NCBI GenBank assembly: GCA_016183325.1
Contig: JACPEV010000028.1
Location: 1 to 35,749 of the forward strand
Direction: 5' to 3'
DNA: 35,749 bases
Source: Candidatus Curtissbacteria bacterium
Lineage (GTDB): Bacteria; Patescibacteriota; Microgenomatia; Curtissbacterales; GWA2-41-24
Shown here: one piece after another, positions 6,648 to 31,233 of the stretch
Layout of the letters: every line of letters starts with the position of its first letter
How positions within the stretch are numbered: position 1 is the stretch's first letter
Translations under genes and position numbers: made by a program
The notes under the pieces: model-generated
What the model saw: only the letters and a program-made list of their open reading frames with translations
Databases searched by the model: none
Told to the model about the DNA's origin: nothing

Positions 6648-6662
6648 GGGGAAAGGGTACCA

Positions 6663-6689
6663 AAGAGTATCGAGAGTATCAAGTGTATC
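6663..6689. repeat. Left arm of element A: 9-bp units AAGAGTATC GAGAGTATC AAGTGTATC
   Basis: Three contiguous 9-nt units, inverted relative to 7085-7138. Confidence 0.85.
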
Positions 6690-6713
6690 GCATGCTTATG
6701 CTAGACTGAGAAT

Positions 6714-7079
6714 ATGATTGATAAAGATCACAAAGGTTACCATAAAACAATTGTGTGGCAAAAAATGAAGGAATTATTAATTGTCACTTACAAACTTGTC
6801 GATAAATTACCAAAAAGCGAAGAGTTTGGATTAAAATCCCAAATGCGTAGGGCAATCGTATCTGCTATATCAAATTTTGTCGAGGGTTATCTTAAAAGAA
6901 GCGCTAAAGAAAAATCTCATTTTATGGAAATTTCTCAAACTTCTCTAATGGAATTAGAAGCTCAAAGCGAAATCTGTCTCATGCTTAATTTTTGGGACGA
7001 TCGCGATTATGAAAATTTCGATCGAAAACACAGAATCGCTTCTTATTTTCTTGGCAGATACAAATCAAAAGTTATATAA
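6714..7079 (+). CDS. Four-helix-bundle protein (S23/23S rRNA intervening-sequence-like)
   Basis: IVWQKMKELLIVTYKLVDKLPKSEEFGLKSQMRRAIVSAISNFVEGYLKRS; family-typical pattern. Confidence 0.88.
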   Translation: MIDKDHKGYHKTIVWQKMKELLIVTYKLVDKLPKSEEFGLKSQMRRAIVSAISNFVEGYLKRSAKEKSHFMEISQTSLMELEAQSEICLMLNFWDDRDYENFDRKHRIASYFLGRYKSKVI

Positions 7080-7084
7080 CCATT

Positions 7085-7138
7085 CATGCTCTCGATACCC
7101 CCGATGCTCTCGATACCCACGATACCCTCGATACACTT
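7085..7138. repeat. Right arm of element A: six 9-bp units (minus strand: AAGTGTATC GAGGGTATC GTGGGTATC GAGAGCATC GGGGGTATC GAGAGCATG)
   Basis: Six contiguous 9-nt units in inverted orientation to the left arm. Confidence 0.88.
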
Positions 7139-9834: not shown

Positions 9835-10443
9835 ATGGACGATCAAGATCAAACAAAAACAGCCGGCAAAGACGAGCCTCGCTCTGTTTCCACATCCCCG
9901 CCAGAACCTCCGGACCCTCATAAACCCAAATGGTATGTTGTCCATACTTATTCGGGCCACGAATCAAAAGTCGCGGCAACCTTAAAACAAAGAATAGAAT
10001 CGCAAAAACTTCAAGACAAAGTCTTGGATATCCTTGTCCCCACCCAGGAAAAAATAGAAATTAAAGAAGGCAAAAAAAACACGGTTAAAGAGAAAATTTT
10101 CCCCGGATATCTTTTAATCAGAATGGTTCTTGACGACAATACTTGGCTTGCAGTCAGAACAACCCCTGGAATAACTAGCTTCGTTGGCATGGCCAATAAA
10201 CCAACACCGCTCCCAGATCAGGAAGTCGCCACAATTCAAAAGTTCATGAGCATGGAAGCTCCCAAATTCAAGACCGCTTTCTCTCAAGGTGAAGCAGTCA
10301 AAATCATTGACGGCCCATTTTCCGAATTTTTGGGATCTGTCTCCGAAATAGACGAAGCCAAAGGCAAACTCAAAGTCATGGTCTCAATCTTCGGCCGCGA
10401 AACTCCCGTTGAGTTGGATCTTTTACAAGTAGCTAAATTATGA
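9835..10443 (+). CDS. nusG: Transcription termination/antitermination factor NusG
   Basis: KWYVVHTYSGHESKVAATLKQRI, FPGYLLIRMVLDDNTWLAVRTTPGITSFVG, KOW region VKIIDGPFSEFLGSVSEI. Confidence 0.97.
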   Translation: MDDQDQTKTAGKDEPRSVSTSPPEPPDPHKPKWYVVHTYSGHESKVAATLKQRIESQKLQDKVLDILVPTQEKIEIKEGKKNTVKEKIFPGYLLIRMVLDDNTWLAVRTTPGITSFVGMANKPTPLPDQEVATIQKFMSMEAPKFKTAFSQGEAVKIIDGPFSEFLGSVSEIDEAKGKLKVMVSIFGRETPVELDLLQVAKL

Positions 10444-10620
10444 AAAATCCAACGAAGACCCTGAGTGAAATCGAATGGGTTGAGCTTGATTTACTTCAAG
10501 TCGCTAAATTATGAATGAAATCAAGCGAAATCCTGAGTGAAATCGAAGGATTGAGTTAGACTTCCTTCAGATGGCTAAATTATGAAAAAGTCAAGCGAAA
10601 AACTTTAAATCAGTGACTGC
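10408..10620 (+). repeat. Three diverged 71-bp tandem units carrying the nusG 3' end
   Basis: ELDLLQVAKL*/ELDLLQVAKL*/ELDFLQMAKL* at 10411, 10482 and 10553 (exact 71-nt spacing). Confidence 0.9.
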
Positions 10621-14234: not shown

Positions 14235-14363
14235 ATGATCGATGACATTAACCTTATGGATGATCCAAACGGTGACAATGGAAACGGTAACGGAGACGGT
14301 GATAAGAAGGACGGAGATGGTGACTCCTCTGAGAACGGCGACAAGGACGAGGACAAGGATTAG
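14235..14363 (+). CDS. Small highly acidic Asp/Gly/Asn-rich protein, 42 aa, not in the supplied ORF track
   Basis: Hand translation MIDDINLMDDPNGDNGNGNGDGDKKDGDGDSSENGDKDEDKD*; purine-rich GGGGG upstream. Confidence 0.6.
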   Translation: MIDDINLMDDPNGDNGNGNGDGDKKDGDGDSSENGDKDEDKD

Positions 14364-14422
14364 TAAAGGATTAGTAAAGGATTAGTAAAGGATTAGTAAA
14401 GAATTAGTAAAGAATTACAAAA
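14357..14422 (+). repeat. 11-bp tandem repeat GGATTAGTAAA x4, then GAATTAGTAAA and GAATTACAAAA
   Basis: Six contiguous 11-nt units, the first containing the stop of the acidic ORF. Confidence 0.93.
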
Positions 14423-14517: not shown

Positions 14518-16359
14518 ATGAAGCATAAGCTAAAAGGCTTCACTATTATAGAACTCTTGGCGGCAGCCTCGATCAGTGGCATCCTCTTTGGAATCTTGTA
14601 CTTCACTTGGTGGAACAAGACTCAGGAAAAAGTCCGAGACGCCCAGAGGATTGCCGATATCAACTCCATCAAAGTTTCAACAGAAGCATTTTATGAAAAA
14701 AACAACAAGTATCCGCCACTTGGAGCTGCTTATCAACCGTACCAGGAAGAAATTTTTACCTCCAACACTATCCCCCCAGGTGCCACCGACTGGATCCCAG
14801 AACTCGTCCCGGCCTTTTCCAAACCCCTACCCAAAGACCCCAAACAAGCCACATTGCCCATATTTTTAGCCATCAATAATTTTTATGATAAAGTTGCCCA
14901 GGTTTTCAAAGAACAACTCAAAGTGGGCGATGTGCTGGCTGCGCCCAGTGTGGTCACTTTGGATTCAGTTGGGTACGTTGGCGAATATACCTCCATTTTT
15001 TGCTTATCGAGCACCGAATGCAAGATAGCTTATCATGATAAGACCAATACATCTTTAAAATTAGTCAGCTGTAATGACGCCACCTGCTCCCCGGCCGCCA
15101 GAACTGTCGCTGTTCTTGATGGCGCACCGGGCTGTATCGTGCCCACTTGTTCAGAAACCGCATATGCTGGCCAACACTCCTCCATTTTTTGCTTGTCATC
15201 CACGGATTGCAAAATCAGCTATCAGGTAGGCGCTTATAGCGCAGCTGTTCTCAAGATGATCGACTGTGACAATGCTGCTTGTAGTGCAGGAACCATAACG
15301 ACGATCGACAGCGCAAACCCTACTGGTTATTTTTCCAAAATCAAATGTCCTACCACCTCAGACGATTGTAAAATTGCTTACAATCAAGACCCAAATCCTT
15401 TCGCAGGCAATGACCTAGGATTATACCTGACTGATTGTAACGATCCTAGCTGCTCAACACGCACCCGCTTCCTTCTTGACGGAGGCGCCGCTTGTGCCCT
15501 TAGCGGTTGCGACTCAATAGAGGCAGGACGTTTTGATATGGTCTGCCTAACCACAGATGATTGCAAGATTGCTTATGAAAAAGACGGAGCCCATCTCTGG
15601 TTTGCCGATTGTAACAACTCCGCTTGCAGCCTAGGCTCTGTAAACGAGGTTGATAGCAATACTGATGGTTCTGGATGGGGAGCCAACCCTGCGTTAGCTT
15701 GTCTAACCGCAGACGATTGTAAAATTGCTTATTCAAATCTCGACACTGGTGCCCTTGTTTTTGCCGATTGTGGTGATCCTAATTGTTCAGCTGCCGGTGT
15801 TACTAAGACTCCTATTGCAGCCGCCGGTTGTAGCAAAGACAGCGTCTGCTTAGCTACACACGTACCCATGGAAGGTACAGTCAGCCAAACTGTGGATATA
15901 GCCTGTCCCTCTGCCACCGAGTGTAAAATTACCCATAATAGTGGAGGTGTTTTGAGACTCATTGATTGTGATGATGCAACTTGTACTACCCGTAACACCA
16001 ATATCCTCGACGGCGCGGGCTGCACTCTAGGCGGTTGTGATACTGCAACTCTTGCTTTCTTTATTCCCATCTATTGTTTAACAACCACCGATTGCCGAAT
16101 TGCCTACCTTGACGACAACCTTGGCGATTTAAAATACATCAACTGCGACAGCTTTCCCTGCGCCGGTCCGGGCCCCACCCCCTCTCCCACACCACCACCC
16201 CCTTTTCTCTACCTCTACCACGTTTCGGTAGACCGCAAGACTCACAATGTCTGGGCTTACCTGGAAAATGAGAAGGATCCCAGAATCTATAATAATCCGC
16301 AAGCCCAGTGCAAAGCCACCCCGCCACAACCTGGGTACAATTTCTGCGGCTCGTTCTAA
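14518..16359 (+). CDS. Type IV prepilin-like protein with large Cys-rich seven-repeat C-terminal domain
   Basis: KGFTIIELLAAASISGILFGILYF class III signal; seven CxxxxDCKIAY-type repeats. Confidence 0.85.
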   Translation: MKHKLKGFTIIELLAAASISGILFGILYFTWWNKTQEKVRDAQRIADINSIKVSTEAFYEKNNKYPPLGAAYQPYQEEIFTSNTIPPGATDWIPELVPAFSKPLPKDPKQATLPIFLAINNFYDKVAQVFKEQLKVGDVLAAPSVVTLDSVGYVGEYTSIFCLSSTECKIAYHDKTNTSLKLVSCNDATCSPAARTVAVLDGAPGCIVPTCSETAYAGQHSSIFCLSSTDCKISYQVGAYSAAVLKMIDCDNAACSAGTITTIDSANPTGYFSKIKCPTTSDDCKIAYNQDPNPFAGNDLGLYLTDCNDPSCSTRTRFLLDGGAACALSGCDSIEAGRFDMVCLTTDDCKIAYEKDGAHLWFADCNNSACSLGSVNEVDSNTDGSGWGANPALACLTADDCKIAYSNLDTGALVFADCGDPNCSAAGVTKTPIAAAGCSKDSVCLATHVPMEGTVSQTVDIACPSATECKITHNSGGVLRLIDCDDATCTTRNTNILDGAGCTLGGCDTATLAFFIPIYCLTTTDCRIAYLDDNLGDLKYINCDSFPCAGPGPTPSPTPPPPFLYLYHVSVDRKTHNVWAYLENEKDPRIYNNPQAQCKATPPQPGYNFCGSF

Positions 16360-16402
16360 AAGAAATTGACAACCAACTGTTAAGCAATTACTATAAACTT
16401 AG

Positions 16403-18232
16403 ATGAGATTTTCACCAAAACCTGGGGTCACCATTATCGAAATTATTATCGGCCTGCTGCTAATTGGTCTGGTAGCAGTGTTAATATCCATTGTTTTCTC
16501 TGCCAATCTGCGGCTTTTTTTGACCCAAATCACCGGCATTGGCATAGCAGAACAAAACAAAATCGTCATAAATGACTTTACCAATCAAACCCGCCAGGCA
16601 GAAAGTATTGTTTCTACTTGCCCGGGTGGCGCATGCCCTGATGACACAACTGGAGATTCGGTTATCGTCTATAGAATCTGGTCGCTGGATGCCAGTGGCA
16701 ACCCCACCAGTTCCACATATGACTATGTTGTGCTGCGGCAAGACCCGCTAAACACAACCAATTTTATCCGTAAAATTTACCCAGATCCGGCAAGTTCAAG
16801 AACAGGCGGTACCCACATCATTGCCACCAACCTGGCAGCAAACGGCCTGGATTTTGATTATAACGACCCCGATCCAACTCAAGCTTCTTATGTAACCATT
16901 ACAGTCACTACAACAAGTACCCAAAGCGGCAAAACCCAAACTATCACCAACTCGGCCAAAGCCAAATTAAGAAATAAGCCGATTGCTGCTATTGTCGAAA
17001 AATTATTCATTAAGAGCATCGGCGGCTCCAGCTGGGATAGCGGTCAAGGCGCCACACCAACCTCAGACAATGGCACTCTTTTAACAGGTCAGCTTGATCT
17101 CGGCAGCGCCGGTGATGTCCTTGTAACTAAATACGATAGCGCAGGTACTGTCCTGTGGGCTAAAAGCATAGGCACCCCAGGTGAAAACATGGGCAGAGCA
17201 GTTAACGAAGGCCCTGCTGGAAGCTACTTATTAGTAGGTACATCCCCAAACAATGGCGGTGATATCCTATTTGCTAAACTTAACAGCAGTGGCAATCTTG
17301 ATTGGGCAAAAACAATCGGAGGCGCAGGCAGTGAGTATACGGCCGATGCTGTCCAGCAAACCACAGACGGTGGTTATATGGTTGCAGGTAGAACAAACAG
17401 CTGGGGTGCCGGCAGTAACGATCTTTTTCTTGTCAAGCTTGGTAGTTCCGGAAATTTTCAGTGGGCAAAAACTGTCGGCGGTCCAGCCTCAGAGACAGTA
17501 AGATCCGCTCAGCAAACTTCAGACGGCGGTTATGTGCTTGCAGGCAACACATTAAGTTATGGCGCGGGCGAAGAGGATTTCTTTCTTGTCAAGCTTGACA
17601 GTTCCGGAAATTTGCAGTGGGCAAAAACTGCTGGTAGCACCGGCATTGATCGCTGGGCAAACGGTATGCAAACCGCAGATGGCGGTTATATTATGGGAGG
17701 TGAAACATTCGGTTTTGGAATGCCAGGAAAAACGTTACTTTTGGTAAAATTTGACAGTTCCGGAAATGTCACTTGGGCAAAAACCGTCCGCGAGCCTTCT
17801 TATGACTATGGACATCAAAAAGTCACTCAAACACCAGACGGCGGTTATGTGGCTGTAGGTGAAAGAGGGTCTACCGCCGTCATGGTTAAACTGGATTCAA
17901 GCGGTGATCACCTTTGGACTAAAGCCTACTCCTCCGCAGGCCTTGTTCAATTTTCCTATGTCAAACCAACTTCTGATGGTAAACTTGTTGCCTCGGGACA
18001 CCGCAATAGCCCTTGGGATAATGGCATAGTCAAAACTGATCAGAATGGGCAAATCCCCGGCTGCAGTGATATCAGCGGAGTCAGCCCCAATGTCACTGCC
18101 CAGACTCTGGCTTCTCCTGCCCCCTTTTTAGTAGCTCCTTCTCCGGTGACTCTAATAGTGCCTGATGCAGCAGTGACTGTTCTGGACCAATCGTCTCTGA
18201 CTATCGAAACTCGATGTGAAGCCCCGGGCTAA
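16403..18232 (+). CDS. Type IV prepilin-like protein with seven-repeat propeller-like C-terminal domain
   Basis: PGVTIIEIIIGLLLIGLVAVLISIV; repeats of DLFLVKLxSSGNxxWAKTxGG...TxDGGYxxxG. Confidence 0.85.
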   Translation: MRFSPKPGVTIIEIIIGLLLIGLVAVLISIVFSANLRLFLTQITGIGIAEQNKIVINDFTNQTRQAESIVSTCPGGACPDDTTGDSVIVYRIWSLDASGNPTSSTYDYVVLRQDPLNTTNFIRKIYPDPASSRTGGTHIIATNLAANGLDFDYNDPDPTQASYVTITVTTTSTQSGKTQTITNSAKAKLRNKPIAAIVEKLFIKSIGGSSWDSGQGATPTSDNGTLLTGQLDLGSAGDVLVTKYDSAGTVLWAKSIGTPGENMGRAVNEGPAGSYLLVGTSPNNGGDILFAKLNSSGNLDWAKTIGGAGSEYTADAVQQTTDGGYMVAGRTNSWGAGSNDLFLVKLGSSGNFQWAKTVGGPASETVRSAQQTSDGGYVLAGNTLSYGAGEEDFFLVKLDSSGNLQWAKTAGSTGIDRWANGMQTADGGYIMGGETFGFGMPGKTLLLVKFDSSGNVTWAKTVREPSYDYGHQKVTQTPDGGYVAVGERGSTAVMVKLDSSGDHLWTKAYSSAGLVQFSYVKPTSDGKLVASGHRNSPWDNGIVKTDQNGQIPGCSDISGVSPNVTAQTLASPAPFLVAPSPVTLIVPDAAVTVLDQSSLTIETRCEAPG

Positions 18233-18253: not shown

Positions 18254-18760
18254 TTGGCGCCAAAATCCTTTAAGCTTAGGTTAATGCCCTTCCATAAAGT
18301 AAATGGTAAATGGTTAATGGTTAATAGAAATAGAGCTAAAAAATCTATTCACTATTCACTATTCACTATTCACCGTAATGGTTTTACCCTCGTCGAAGTC
18401 CTCATCTTCCTTATACTAGTTTTAGCCATGGTTACCGTGCTTCTTATTTCCAGTGGCAGCCTGCGACAATCAAGAAATACTAATTTGCAAACGATTGCCG
18501 CCGGAATTGCCACTTGCGAAATTGAAAGGCTCAGAGATTTAGCCTACGACAGCCTTCCTGCAGACGGTACTGTGGCTATTGGATCACCTTGCGCAAGCGA
18601 CCTTGCAAAGCTGCCCACACCAAGTTCTGCCAATCTGACTCTTGCCAACTATCAAAGTGACGTCAATATCAAGCAGATTACCATCGTCGTCTCCTGGACC
18701 GAAAGTGGCGTTGCCGACAACATCCAGATGGACACCTTAAAAGCAAAGTATGGAACGTAG
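18254..18760 (+). CDS. Type IV pseudopilin (PilV/GspI-like)
   Basis: HRNGFTLVEVLIFLILVLAMVTVLLISSGSLRQSRNTNLQTIAAGIATCEIERLRDLAYDSLP. Confidence 0.85.
   Translation: MAPKSFKLRLMPFHKVNGKWLMVNRNRAKKSIHYSLFTIHRNGFTLVEVLIFLILVLAMVTVLLISSGSLRQSRNTNLQTIAAGIATCEIERLRDLAYDSLPADGTVAIGSPCASDLAKLPTPSSANLTLANYQSDVNIKQITIVVSWTESGVADNIQMDTLKAKYGT
18299..18374. repeat. Inverted 7-bp array inside the 5' end of the pseudopilin ORF
   Basis: GTAAATG GTAAATG GTTAATG GTTAATA ... TATTCAC x4. Confidence 0.9.
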
Positions 18761-18761
18761 A

Positions 18762-18808
18762 TGACAACTGACAACTAACACTTGACACTTGACAACTGAC
18801 ATTTGATA
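18762..18808. repeat. Left arm of element B: 7-bp units TGACAAC TGACAAC TAACACT TGACACT TGACAAC TGACATT
   Basis: Six contiguous 7-nt units, inverted relative to 19232-19294. Confidence 0.9.
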
Positions 18809-18818
18809 TAAAAATGAA

Positions 18819-19136
18819 ATGAAGATTAAACAACTGACAAAAAAATATTTCCCAGCTGAAGAAAAATATTGGCTGACTGATCAAATAATCAGAGCATCAA
18901 ACTCTATAGTACTAAACATCGCAGAGGGTGCAGATCGGGGAACTGATAAAGACTTTGCTCTCTTTCTTAACCGCTCGCATACATCTTTAAATGAGGTAGT
19001 TGCATGCCTAGATATCGCCCTAAAAGAGAAATACATTACTGTAAACATCCATGATCAGTTTCTACAAGAAGCTGAAAATTTGGCTAGCCAAATTACTGCA
19101 TTTAGGAGAAAATTATTCACAACGCCTACAAAATGA
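18819..19136 (+). CDS. Four-helix-bundle protein (S23-like), short N-terminus
   Basis: KKYFPAEEKYWLTDQIIRASNSIVLNIAEGADRGTDKDFALFLNRSHTSLNEVVACLDIA. Confidence 0.88.
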   Translation: MKIKQLTKKYFPAEEKYWLTDQIIRASNSIVLNIAEGADRGTDKDFALFLNRSHTSLNEVVACLDIALKEKYITVNIHDQFLQEAENLASQITAFRRKLFTTPTK

Positions 19137-20455
19137 GCGCTTCGCAAATATTTAACAATTTACATCTAATAACTGACAAAATTAAAAATGTCAAGTGTCC
19201 CGACAAAGTCGAGGCTCGCCTCCGGCGGCAAATGTCAAGTGTCAAGTGTCAAATGTCAAGTGTCAAGTGTCAAATGTCAAGTGTCAAATGTCAATCCGGC
19301 CAACTGATTATCATTTCGCTAATCTTTATTACTGTGGTCTTAGTCTTAACAGGTGCGCTTTTTGGCAGAACCGCATCATTCTTGCGTTTTGGCGGCAACA
19401 GCCTTCGGCAAGAACAGGCCAATACTCTTGCCGAAGCCGGCGTTAATTACGCCCTCTGGCAATTAAACAAAACTGCCGGCGACTTTGGGGGTATTGGCGA
19501 AACTGCACTTGGACCCGTAGGGACTTTTGAAGTTCAAATAGTGCCTAAAACCGCGATTCTCAAAGGCATAGTCGCAACCGGTTACGTACCAGACAAGACA
19601 AGTTACAGATCTAAAAGGACTATAAACCTTGATGCTTTGGTAAGCTCTGAAGAAACTGCATTTATCTATGCGGTGCAAGTGGGAAACGGTGGCGTCTTTA
19701 TGAAAAACACCGCTAGAATTACGGGGACTGTCTGGGCCAATGCTAATATCGCCGGAGAAAACTCTTCTCTTATTGACGGCGCAGCCTATGCCACCGGCAC
19801 AATAACAGACCCGCCCTGTACGCCTGGCTCCCCTCCAAGCTGTGTAGCTCACCCAAACGAACCAAGTTCTCCTCCAATGCCCACAGTCGACTACGCATAT
19901 TGGAAAGATCAGGCAACCGCTGAAGGCATCACGCCCTGTCCTGGAGGCATTTGTAGTTATGATACCGGCAGCATTAACCTTGGTCCCCAACAGTTTGTGG
20001 GAGACTTGGATCTTAAAAACACAGTCACAGTAACTATGAACGGGCCAATTTATGTAACCGGCAATGTCATTCTCCAAAATTCTGCCATTTTGAAGCTTAA
20101 CGAAAATTTCGGTTCCTATAGCACAGTCCTGATAGCAGACGGTACGATCACGATTAAAAACAGCGCCCAGGTTCAACCCACCAGTGCTAACCCCAAAGGG
20201 TACATTATGATCGTCACAACATCCATCCTAGACCCTGCCATAAGTATCCAAAATGGCGGAGCCAACGCTGTCTTTTATGCTTTAGATGGTGGTGCCGAAT
20301 TGCAAAATTCTGCCCAAGTGAATACCTTAGTAACCAAGAAATTGACCATGCAAAATTCTGCCACCCTCACCTATGACTCGGGCCTTGCCAGCGCCCAATT
20401 CTCCTCCGGCCCAGGCGGTTCCTGGCAAATTAAAAAAGGCACATATAGATTTTAG
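19133..20455 (+). CDS. PilX-like pilus assembly / N-terminal-TM protein with passenger domain
   Basis: GQLIIISLIFITVVLVLTGALFGRTASFLRFGGNSLRQEQANTLAEAGVNYALWQLN; overlaps the upstream stop by ATGA. Confidence 0.75.
   Translation: MSASQIFNNLHLITDKIKNVKCPDKVEARLRRQMSSVKCQMSSVKCQMSSVKCQSGQLIIISLIFITVVLVLTGALFGRTASFLRFGGNSLRQEQANTLAEAGVNYALWQLNKTAGDFGGIGETALGPVGTFEVQIVPKTAILKGIVATGYVPDKTSYRSKRTINLDALVSSEETAFIYAVQVGNGGVFMKNTARITGTVWANANIAGENSSLIDGAAYATGTITDPPCTPGSPPSCVAHPNEPSSPPMPTVDYAYWKDQATAEGITPCPGGICSYDTGSINLGPQQFVGDLDLKNTVTVTMNGPIYVTGNVILQNSAILKLNENFGSYSTVLIADGTITIKNSAQVQPTSANPKGYIMIVTTSILDPAISIQNGGANAVFYALDGGAELQNSAQVNTLVTKKLTMQNSATLTYDSGLASAQFSSGPGGSWQIKKGTYRF
19232..19294. repeat. Right arm of element B: nine 7-bp units (A/G)TGTCAA
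   Basis: ATGTCAA GTGTCAA GTGTCAA ATGTCAA GTGTCAA GTGTCAA ATGTCAA GTGTCAA ATGTCAA. Confidence 0.97.
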
Positions 20456-21960: not shown

Positions 21961-21988
21961 TTGAGAGTTGAGAGTGGAGAGTTGAAAA
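21961..21988. repeat. Left arm of element C: TTGAGAG TTGAGAG TGGAGAG TTGAAAA
   Basis: Four contiguous 7-nt units, inverted relative to 22372-22399. Confidence 0.85.
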
Positions 21989-22360
21989 TTACTTCCCGCT
22001 CAGCTTTCTTTTAATGGATTTAACGGTCGAAGTCAAAATCGCCACTATCTGATTACATTCGTCCAGCTCACACTCAACCAAGTGGGGAGAAATTAACTTC
22101 GATTCCAATATAACCCTCAACCAATAACGAGTTTCTCGAGCTTCTTTTAGTGAAATATTCATCGAATGTAGAAACTCCCTTGGAGAAATTGCATCTTGAG
22201 CTTCCTCGCAGTTAGCTCCTATAGAACAAGCTGCTCTTATAACTTGGTTTGCTATTGCATATCCAGCAGGGGTTTTTGGTAATTTTGAGGCAAGTACAAT
22301 GATCCTCACAGAAAATTTCAATAACCTATTTAGTAGTTCTTCTTTGTAATTCTCATTCAT
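21989..22360 (-). CDS. Four-helix-bundle protein (S23-like)
   Basis: FSVRIIVLASKLPKTPAGYAIANQVIRAACSIGANCEEAQDAISPREFLHSMNISLKEARETRYWLRVI. Confidence 0.9.
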   Translation of the reverse strand: MNENYKEELLNRLLKFSVRIIVLASKLPKTPAGYAIANQVIRAACSIGANCEEAQDAISPREFLHSMNISLKEARETRYWLRVILESKLISPHLVECELDECNQIVAILTSTVKSIKRKLSGK

Positions 22361-22371
22361 GCTTATTTAAT

Positions 22372-22399
22372 TTTCCACTTTCAACTTTCAATTTTCAAC
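22372..22399. repeat. Right arm of element C: TTTCCAC TTTCAAC TTTCAAT TTTCAAC
   Basis: Four contiguous 7-nt units. Confidence 0.9.
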
Positions 22400-22491
22400 T
22401 TTTATTCTTTTCCCCTCTTGACCCCATTTTTTCTCATGTGATATATATAAGTCCATAAAAGAATTTATTAGTTTGTAGTTGGACCGCTTTA

Positions 22492-30639: not shown

Positions 30640-30769
30640 TCATTTCCAGCAACTAATTTCTTTTGGTATTTCGATGGCCGGCAAACATTGTAATCACTAC
30701 TGTATCAAAAGGGCAACAGGTAATTTGGAGTTTTACGACCTAAATATTACCTAAAGGGATCAAAGGATA

Positions 30770-30799
30770 GTCAAAGTCGAAAGCCAAAGTGTAAAGTCG
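30770..30799. repeat. Left arm of element D: GTCAAA GTCGAAA GCCAAA GTGTAAA GTCG
   Basis: 6-7-nt units, inverted relative to 31190-31218. Confidence 0.8.
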
Positions 30800-30801
30800 T
30801 C

Positions 30802-31206
30802 TCATCGAATCTTTTTTATTAGACCAGTAAGCATCGCGATAATTTCCTGACATTCCTTGCTCAAAAGATCACCTTTTTCTTTATCAATTTGTCCAATTTC
30901 TACAAGAACCACAATCCAATAGTCCGTTTCACCTTCAGAACCTCTTGATATTTCCAAGTGTGAAGCAAAACTTTTTCCTCTGTGGCTATGAAACCCCTCG
31001 GCAATATTTGCAGGAACTGAAAAAGCTGAGGATATTGCTTGTCTCCAAATCTCCCAATCAGCAAAACTCTTCTTCTTTGATTTAGATAATTTGTACAGTT
31101 CAAGTGCTAGTTTATGTGCTCTTTGCCAAACAATTAAATCCTGATAAGATCTTACTTTTGGCTTTGACTGATCACTTTGATTTATTCCCGACTTTTCACT
31201 ATTCAC
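30802..31206 (-). CDS. Four-helix-bundle protein (S23-like), probable GTG start inside the repeat arm
   Basis: YQDLIVWQRAHKLALELYKLSKSKKKSFADWEIWRQAISSAFSVPANIAEGFHSHRGKSFASHLEISRGSEGETDYWI. Confidence 0.92.
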   Translation of the reverse strand: MNSEKSGINQSDQSKPKVRSYQDLIVWQRAHKLALELYKLSKSKKKSFADWEIWRQAISSAFSVPANIAEGFHSHRGKSFASHLEISRGSEGETDYWIVVLVEIGQIDKEKGDLLSKECQEIIAMLTGLIKKIR

Positions 31207-31218
31207 TTTGACTTTGAC
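31190..31218. repeat. Right arm of element D (minus strand GTCAAA GTCAAA GTGAATA GTGAAAA GTC)
   Basis: 6-7-nt units in inverted orientation. Confidence 0.85.
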
Positions 31219-31233
31219 TCCTGATGCTTCGCG

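Follow-up and report, generated by a model that had tools for sequence, protein, structure and literature searches.

How did a tandem array of 7-bp units come to lie at the start of a pilus gene, right behind a gene for a four-helix-bundle protein, and is that array translated? Both questions are raised by Element B, which lies in a contig of Candidatus Curtissbacteria whose 35,749 nucleotides we analyzed as one stretch, here called the window. We consider it likely that Element B is what remains, after decay, of one copy of a small mobile element built around an IVP gene, that its two arms are the ends of that element and travel with the gene, and that its right end has become the leader of the PilX-like protein.

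Layout of Element B

The features of the locus are as follows.

18254–18760, + strand: upstream prepilin gene, PilV-like (N_methyl; GFTLVEVLI); stop TAG at 18758–18760, start likely ATG 18284 or 18317
18299–18375, no strand assigned: gene-less inverted heptad hairpin in the prepilin leader; TAAATGG/TTAATGG arm 18299–18327, CTATTCA arm 18345–18375; z = −3.45
18762–18807, + strand: left arm of Element B; TTGACAY/TGACAAC heptads with TGA stops in all three frames
18819–19136, + strand: IVP/S23 four-helix-bundle ORF of Element B; about 19 N-terminal residues missing relative to the intact copy L257
19187–19199, + strand: first two units of the right arm, preceding the insert
19200–19228, no strand assigned: 29-bp insert in the right arm, G+C-rich and palindromic, CCGACAAAGTCGAGGCTCGCCTCCGGCGG
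19229–19294, + strand: main right arm, reverse complement of the left arm, stop-free in all sense frames, encoding QMSSVKCQMSSVKCQMSSVKCQ
19133–20455, + strand: PilX-like ORF; candidate starts 19133, 19232, 19253, and 19274 (all ATG); conserved part from 19295, SGQLIIISLIF

The initial annotation of this DNA had placed Element B within a pilin operon, and a prepilin gene does precede it and a PilX-like gene follow it. Its account of the right side also held: the ATG of ORF 19133 overlaps the four-helix-bundle stop (TGA, 19134–19136), and the array of nine-odd (A/G)TGTCAA heptads (9.4 copies by TRF at 19229–19294) is interrupted by an insert. It had not mentioned that the heptads of the left array repeat those of the right in reverse complement. 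RNA folding predicts that these arms base-pair with each other across the IVP gene (−143.7 kcal/mol, z = −4.7, 0/100 shuffles), giving the base-paired termini with an ORF in the loop that characterize rRNA intervening sequences (IVSs). Arrays of period 7 numbered 32 in 436 kb of the genome, against none in an order-2 Markov simulation. Small G+C-rich palindromes of the GGCTCGCCTC type, like the one at 19200–19228, recur beside or within heptad arrays elsewhere (G000 C22:31665, C15:28544, and C4:34197; L023), and such an insert is also found in the PilX leader of G004. The window further contains an 11-bp array (AAGGATTAGTA, 5.7 copies, 14355–14417) and a 71-bp repeat (2.5 copies, 10426–10600), neither of which has any relation to IVP genes. 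An Rfam scan of the window gave zero matches, and no tRNA that might serve as a target was found in it; PADLOC defence models likewise gave none.

The protein of Element B belongs to the 23S_rRNA_IVP family (PF05635, 1.7e-25, 89.8 bits against a cut-off of 33.8) and matches TIGR02436 (86.5 bits against a cut-off of 24). Its four-helix domain is incomplete; besides the residues missing at the N terminus, the Pfam match begins at model position 14–16. The closest relatives are 75% (G013, frameshifted) and 72% (G012, full length and intact) identical. These relatives (L256 and L257) have the same TTGACA-type arms as Element B but are located after a different gene, one whose protein ends in PVRLQ and which we take to be dnaN. 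The genome also holds a sister copy, L007, whose C-terminal part is missing, and when its nucleotide sequence was aligned with that of Element B across the arms, the gene alone aligned. We found no nuclease, recombinase, or transposase motif of known type in the IVP protein. Solved structures that match the family by sequence include 2gsc and 2rld, and a family member from Xanthomonas is described as a homopentameric ring in work cited in PMC4990558.

The leader of the PilX-like protein

The frame through the array reads ...RRQMSSVKCQMSSVKCQMSSVKCQSGQLIIISLIF. Standard starts in the PilX frame occur at ATG 19133, 19232, 19253, and 19274 and then at GTG 19334, within the hydrophobic segment. 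Every ATG, GTG, or TTG start before the GQ segment thus lies at or before 19274, and the shortest such product begins MSSVKCQ, which is wholly array-encoded. Because the last of these starts is inside the array, at least seven residues of any product that keeps its N-terminal segment whole are array-encoded. It follows that the case the initial annotation named as its own refutation, a start at the last in-array ATG with no repeat-derived residues, contradicts itself, since that ATG still encodes repeat residues. The argument that nine units preserve the frame is a weak one, as the array contains no stop in any frame.

Comparison with orthologues had been proposed as a check. Within the same family, PilX leaders are either short and plain (MNRKNQKGQ, MKMKKGQ, MKKSILVTNLRGQ) or built from unrelated heptads (G003, G001, and G004). 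For G003 and G004, a heptad array stands between the sole possible ATG and GQ, and these arrays must therefore be read, provided that the protein is made. Judged from their reading frames, we take repeat-derived PilX leaders in these two genomes to be real. The leader of the upstream prepilin in the window is itself the gene-less inverted heptad pair listed above, and heptad-built leaders are found in many prepilins of these genomes.

Could translation instead begin within the hydrophobic segment, or could PilX have been lost after the insertion, so that no protein contains repeat-derived residues? We regard this as unlikely. It would fit with the absence of a Shine-Dalgarno-like sequence before every candidate PilX start, and gain or loss of 7-bp units can shift the frame relative to an upstream start. 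However, the PilX-like ORF is intact across 386 conserved residues, with 59% identity to the G003 orthologue, a start at 19334 would cost the protein its conserved GQ and half of its hydrophobic segment, and two orthologues can be translated only with array-encoded leaders. From sequence, then, it is very likely that at least seven array-encoded residues of PilX are translated, and the beginning of the pilus protein that follows appears now to be encoded by the right end of Element B. The designation PilX-like is based on the N-terminal hydrophobic segment, the gene order, and the orthologues in relatives; the sole family match of the protein, DUF7305, is slightly under its cut-off (26.5 against 27 bits).

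It had been suggested that the element replaced or extended the leader region. Extension agrees with the data, in that the right arm lengthens the leader, whereas replacement of a neighboring gene does not, since homologues of PilW, PilV, and PilX are all present. Replacement of PilW in particular was ruled out by a homologue at 16358–16978, and the order PilW-PilV-[element]-PilX indicates that no gene was replaced. In related genomes, intact IVP elements lie directly downstream of PilX homologues and before a small L33-like gene (G003:C5, G010:C19, and G012:C38 and C52). By their positions, IVP elements appear to have struck the pilus locus repeatedly.

Inverted arrays and insertion sites of IVP genes

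The wider setting, which the initial annotation missed while observing the locus itself correctly, is that Element B is one of 16 IVP-gene matches in the genome and an instance of a widespread mobile architecture. Three further IVP elements lie in the window. One (6662–7138; gene 6714–7079, + strand) has inverted 9-bp arms (GAGTATC.. / ..GATACCCTC), and its gene weakly matches Avd models (NCBIfam DivGenRetAVD, 1.5e-6; bAvd, 2.9e-6). Another (21961–22407; gene 21989–22360, − strand) has TTGARAG heptad arms and begins directly after the stop of the upstream ORF, downstream of the ribosomal L10 gene. The last (30768–31219; gene 30802–31206, − strand) has AGTCAAAG-type arms. Unlike Element B, which sits at a junction of pilV- and pilX-like genes, L011 (G000:C22, 1371–3312) lies within an rRNA gene, in an early variable region of the 16S gene (Rfam), presumably helix H6; a gene-less CGGATTT/CTGATAT array pair is found just upstream of that 16S gene.

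Inverted arrays of 7- to 9-bp units flank IVP genes across bacteria. In this genome and its CPR relatives, inverted flank scores exceeded 95% of a null made of mismatched pairs at 31 of 39 IVP loci. Across many phyla, 68 of 79 loci were above 95% and 53 above 99% of the null, in a scan that retained the best-matching IVPs and so under-sampled divergent ones; among controls shifted by 700 bp, the corresponding counts were 3/150 and 0/150. The periods of the flanking arrays were 7 (37), 8 (20), 14 (14), 9 (3), and 15 (3). Read inward, the arms are rich in AG (603, against 120 for CT) at a spacing of 7 or 8, a polarity found in most elements that the arms of Element B lack. Stops are more frequent in left than in right arms (10.0 versus 6.1 per 100 nt), with a weaker contrast in CPR copies, so an open right arm is a tendency and not a rule. 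Similarity of the arms tracks similarity of the IVP proteins (Mantel, 0/500), which indicates that the arms belong to the element.

The number of IVP genes also tracked the abundance of arrays. Among 31 genomes of the class, for which array densities came from sampled stretches that were small for some genomes, arrays of 7 to 9 bp (together with 14 and 21) correlated with IVP number (ρ = 0.60, P = 3e-4), as did family means (ρ = 0.70, P = 5e-4), whereas other array periods did not (ρ = −0.07). The median was 15.5 arrays per 100 kb in genomes with at least four IVPs and 2.3 where there was at most one. In the family to which the window belongs, the sole IVP-free genome had 3.2 arrays per 100 kb, compared with 7 to 50 in the others. 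By extrapolation, a genome holds an estimated 200 or so arrays of 7 to 9 bp; with 16 IVP matches, most arrays must be gene-less, which fits with their being shed or non-autonomous copies.

Heptad arrays might instead be ordinary host repeats born of slippage, the arms being pre-existing landing pads into which IVP genes insert. Many arrays have no IVP gene, some core genes (pth and a ruvX-like gene) also lie between similar arrays, and among long simple repeats, heptads are the most frequent kind in many bacteria according to work cited in PMC4679880. Yet the empty sites described below are array-free, arms at different loci go with the lineage of their gene, IVP number governs the density of these arrays but not of those with other periods, and inverted arm scores above 99% of the null were found for 5 of 6 IVP genes but only 13 of 463 other genes. 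We regard this origin as improbable. The non-IVP genes seen between similar inverted short-unit arrays are those for peptidyl-tRNA hydrolase (pth), a RuvX-like protein, and GxxExxY (G000:C22:33846-34543, C4:6182-6637, and C22:26683-27108).

Filled and empty sites on cyanobacterial plasmids bear on whether the arms move with the gene. In Trichormus variabilis plasmid C, an element lies between two genes of a T4SS region, while plasmids about 98% identical to it have neither the element nor repeats at that site; with the element in place the sequence is GTAAT-[arms+gene]-GTAAT, and a single GTAAT marks the empty site. Two related plasmids of Nostoc ATCC 53789 carry elements at different junctions of one operon, so that each provides the other's empty site. 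Here the duplications are TTCTA, which is exact, and TAATG/TTATG, which has one mismatch and retains the upstream stop and the downstream ATG. Class-wide, 5-bp target duplications at gene junctions thus comprise two exact cases and a third with one mismatch. At these plasmid sites, the arms and gene were inserted as one unit. Other plasmids have a gene-less hairpin (Brasilonema) or decayed copies at the same positions, and at one the IVP gene itself is broken by a hairpin that has the same units but no gene. Elements also occur in cas10/cmr3 and cas6/cas4 junctions, the former being empty in PCC 7002. The Aulosira copy, at a sixth site, is located within a gene, in its 3′ end, and has no clear duplication, so the rule of junction and duplication is not absolute. 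At site 4 and the nrd site (L231/L237), sequences were too diverged for a clean duplication to be read, and no empty site was found near enough to read the target duplication of Element B. A single CPR IVP query gave zero matches in a phage collection.

The median distance from the end of the upstream gene to the left arm is 1 nt over 64 loci. The arm begins within 15 nt of that gene in 51 of the 64, compared with 27% of ordinary co-directional neighbors in the genome, and the upstream gene is co-directional at 58 IVP loci and opposed at 6 (298:144 for ordinary genes; P = 6e-5). Selection for co-transcription, rather than insertion preference, may account in part for this position, and at some loci stops in the arms may make the upstream ORF look shorter than it was.

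A proposed mobile element and its known counterparts

We propose an element that consists of one IVP/S23 four-helix-bundle gene with inverted arrays of 7- to 9-bp tandem units as its ends. The unit sequence drifts across lineages while the two arms of each copy remain alike, possibly through hairpin-templated repair and slippage. Insertion, which we infer to be transposition, would prefer the junction right behind the stop codon of a co-directional gene, where a short target duplication can leave the upstream stop and downstream start whole. Element B would have landed between the pilV- and pilX-like genes, its left arm closing all three frames and its stop-free right arm being captured as coding sequence for a PilX leader region that is tolerant of change. 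The IVP protein may recognize the hairpin, and its ring would do so by reading the periodic arms in RNA or single-stranded DNA. We put at about even the chances of the broader proposal: that IVP/S23 genes represent an unrecognized class of mobile element, with one pentamer-forming four-helix-bundle gene between inverted 7- to 9-bp arrays, which enters operons at stop/start junctions, making 5-bp duplications but using no recognized transposase, and which sheds the gene-less heptad hairpins of CPR bacteria, cyanobacteria, and others, the ring perhaps binding one unit per subunit.

Alternatively, the element could lack autonomy and depend for its movement on a different enzyme acting in trans; examples would be a Y1 transposase of the IS200/RAYT type, or a reverse transcriptase with an Avd-like IVP as its partner. 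No nuclease is visible in the element, the IVP copy at 6714 resembles the Avd of diversity-generating retroelements, and one Y1 transposase gene in the genome has weakly inverted flanks. Even so, this genome, 95% complete and with its 16 IVP matches, has zero matches to RVT_1, and there are none in G028 or G053; reverse transcriptase does not track the elements, and we rejected that route. Nor does Element B belong among diversity-generating retroelements, in which Avd is adjacent to a reverse transcriptase. Counts of Y1 correlated with neither arrays (ρ = 0.14) nor IVPs (ρ = 0.18), G036 has 18 Y1 matches with zero IVPs and few arrays, and G033, G038, and G055 have IVPs but no Y1; a Y1/RAYT partner was likewise rejected. 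We consider movement in trans doubtful, though some other enzyme may be involved.

An element that moves without a recognized recombinase would pose a new problem in mobile DNA. S23/IVP proteins are very widely annotated as "four helix bundle protein" of unknown function, and heptad arrays have long been puzzling in several phyla. A link between the two offers an explanation of each that can be tested, and it opens the mobility of IVS-type elements outside rRNA to direct tests. The locus also shows a route by which the ends of mobile elements may become coding sequence, here pilin leader peptides, in CPR bacteria. In the open-access literature, we found no paper that joins the IVP-bearing rRNA insertions with the heptamer arrays discussed below, and nothing directly relevant on Avd/S23 pentamers or SDR elements.

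Several known systems share parts of this architecture. Cyanobacteria reportedly contain STRR heptanucleotides, a heptad stem in the tRNA-Leu intron, and SDR elements within heptad arrays. These heptad arrays form hairpins, and small G+C-rich inserts resembling 19200–19228 are nested in them; we know of no tie between these heptads and an S23/IVP gene, nor of their explanation as ends of one element. TAACTGA heptamer arrays in Beggiatoaceae, Cyanobacteria, and Bacteroidetes are intergenic, near start codons, and phylogenetically scattered, and horizontal transfer without a known mechanism has been suspected (PMC4679880). Those arrays are of a single fixed heptamer that was read as a regulatory site, with no link made to IVP. 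REP/RAYT systems with their REPINs (PMC3116915), and MITEs, likewise scatter small palindromes around an autonomous gene-bearing form. In contrast to Element B, which encodes an IVP and has no Y1 gene flanked by REP palindromes, RAYT is itself a Y1 transposase gene, and the palindromes around it are not made of heptads; in the genomes analyzed here, Y1 counts do not follow the arrays.

The closest counterpart is the rRNA IVS, as in the 23S gene of Coxiella burnetii, which has the same protein family, a selfish-element character, and termini that pair into a stem (PMC4990558). It even has tandem GACAGAT heptamers before the S23 ORF, in numbers that vary between strains (PMC4990558). Insertions in CPR 16S and 23S genes carry 23S_rRNA_IVP ORFs, in a survey that covered rRNA genes only and whose accessible text does not mention repeats or inverted arms (PMC11270868). 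Known IVSs lie within rRNA, from which RNase III excises them (PMC4990558), whereas Element B and most copies described here lie between protein genes. Unlike known IVSs, copies of the Element B type have inverted arrays on both sides, and target duplications and gene-less derivatives are seen among them.
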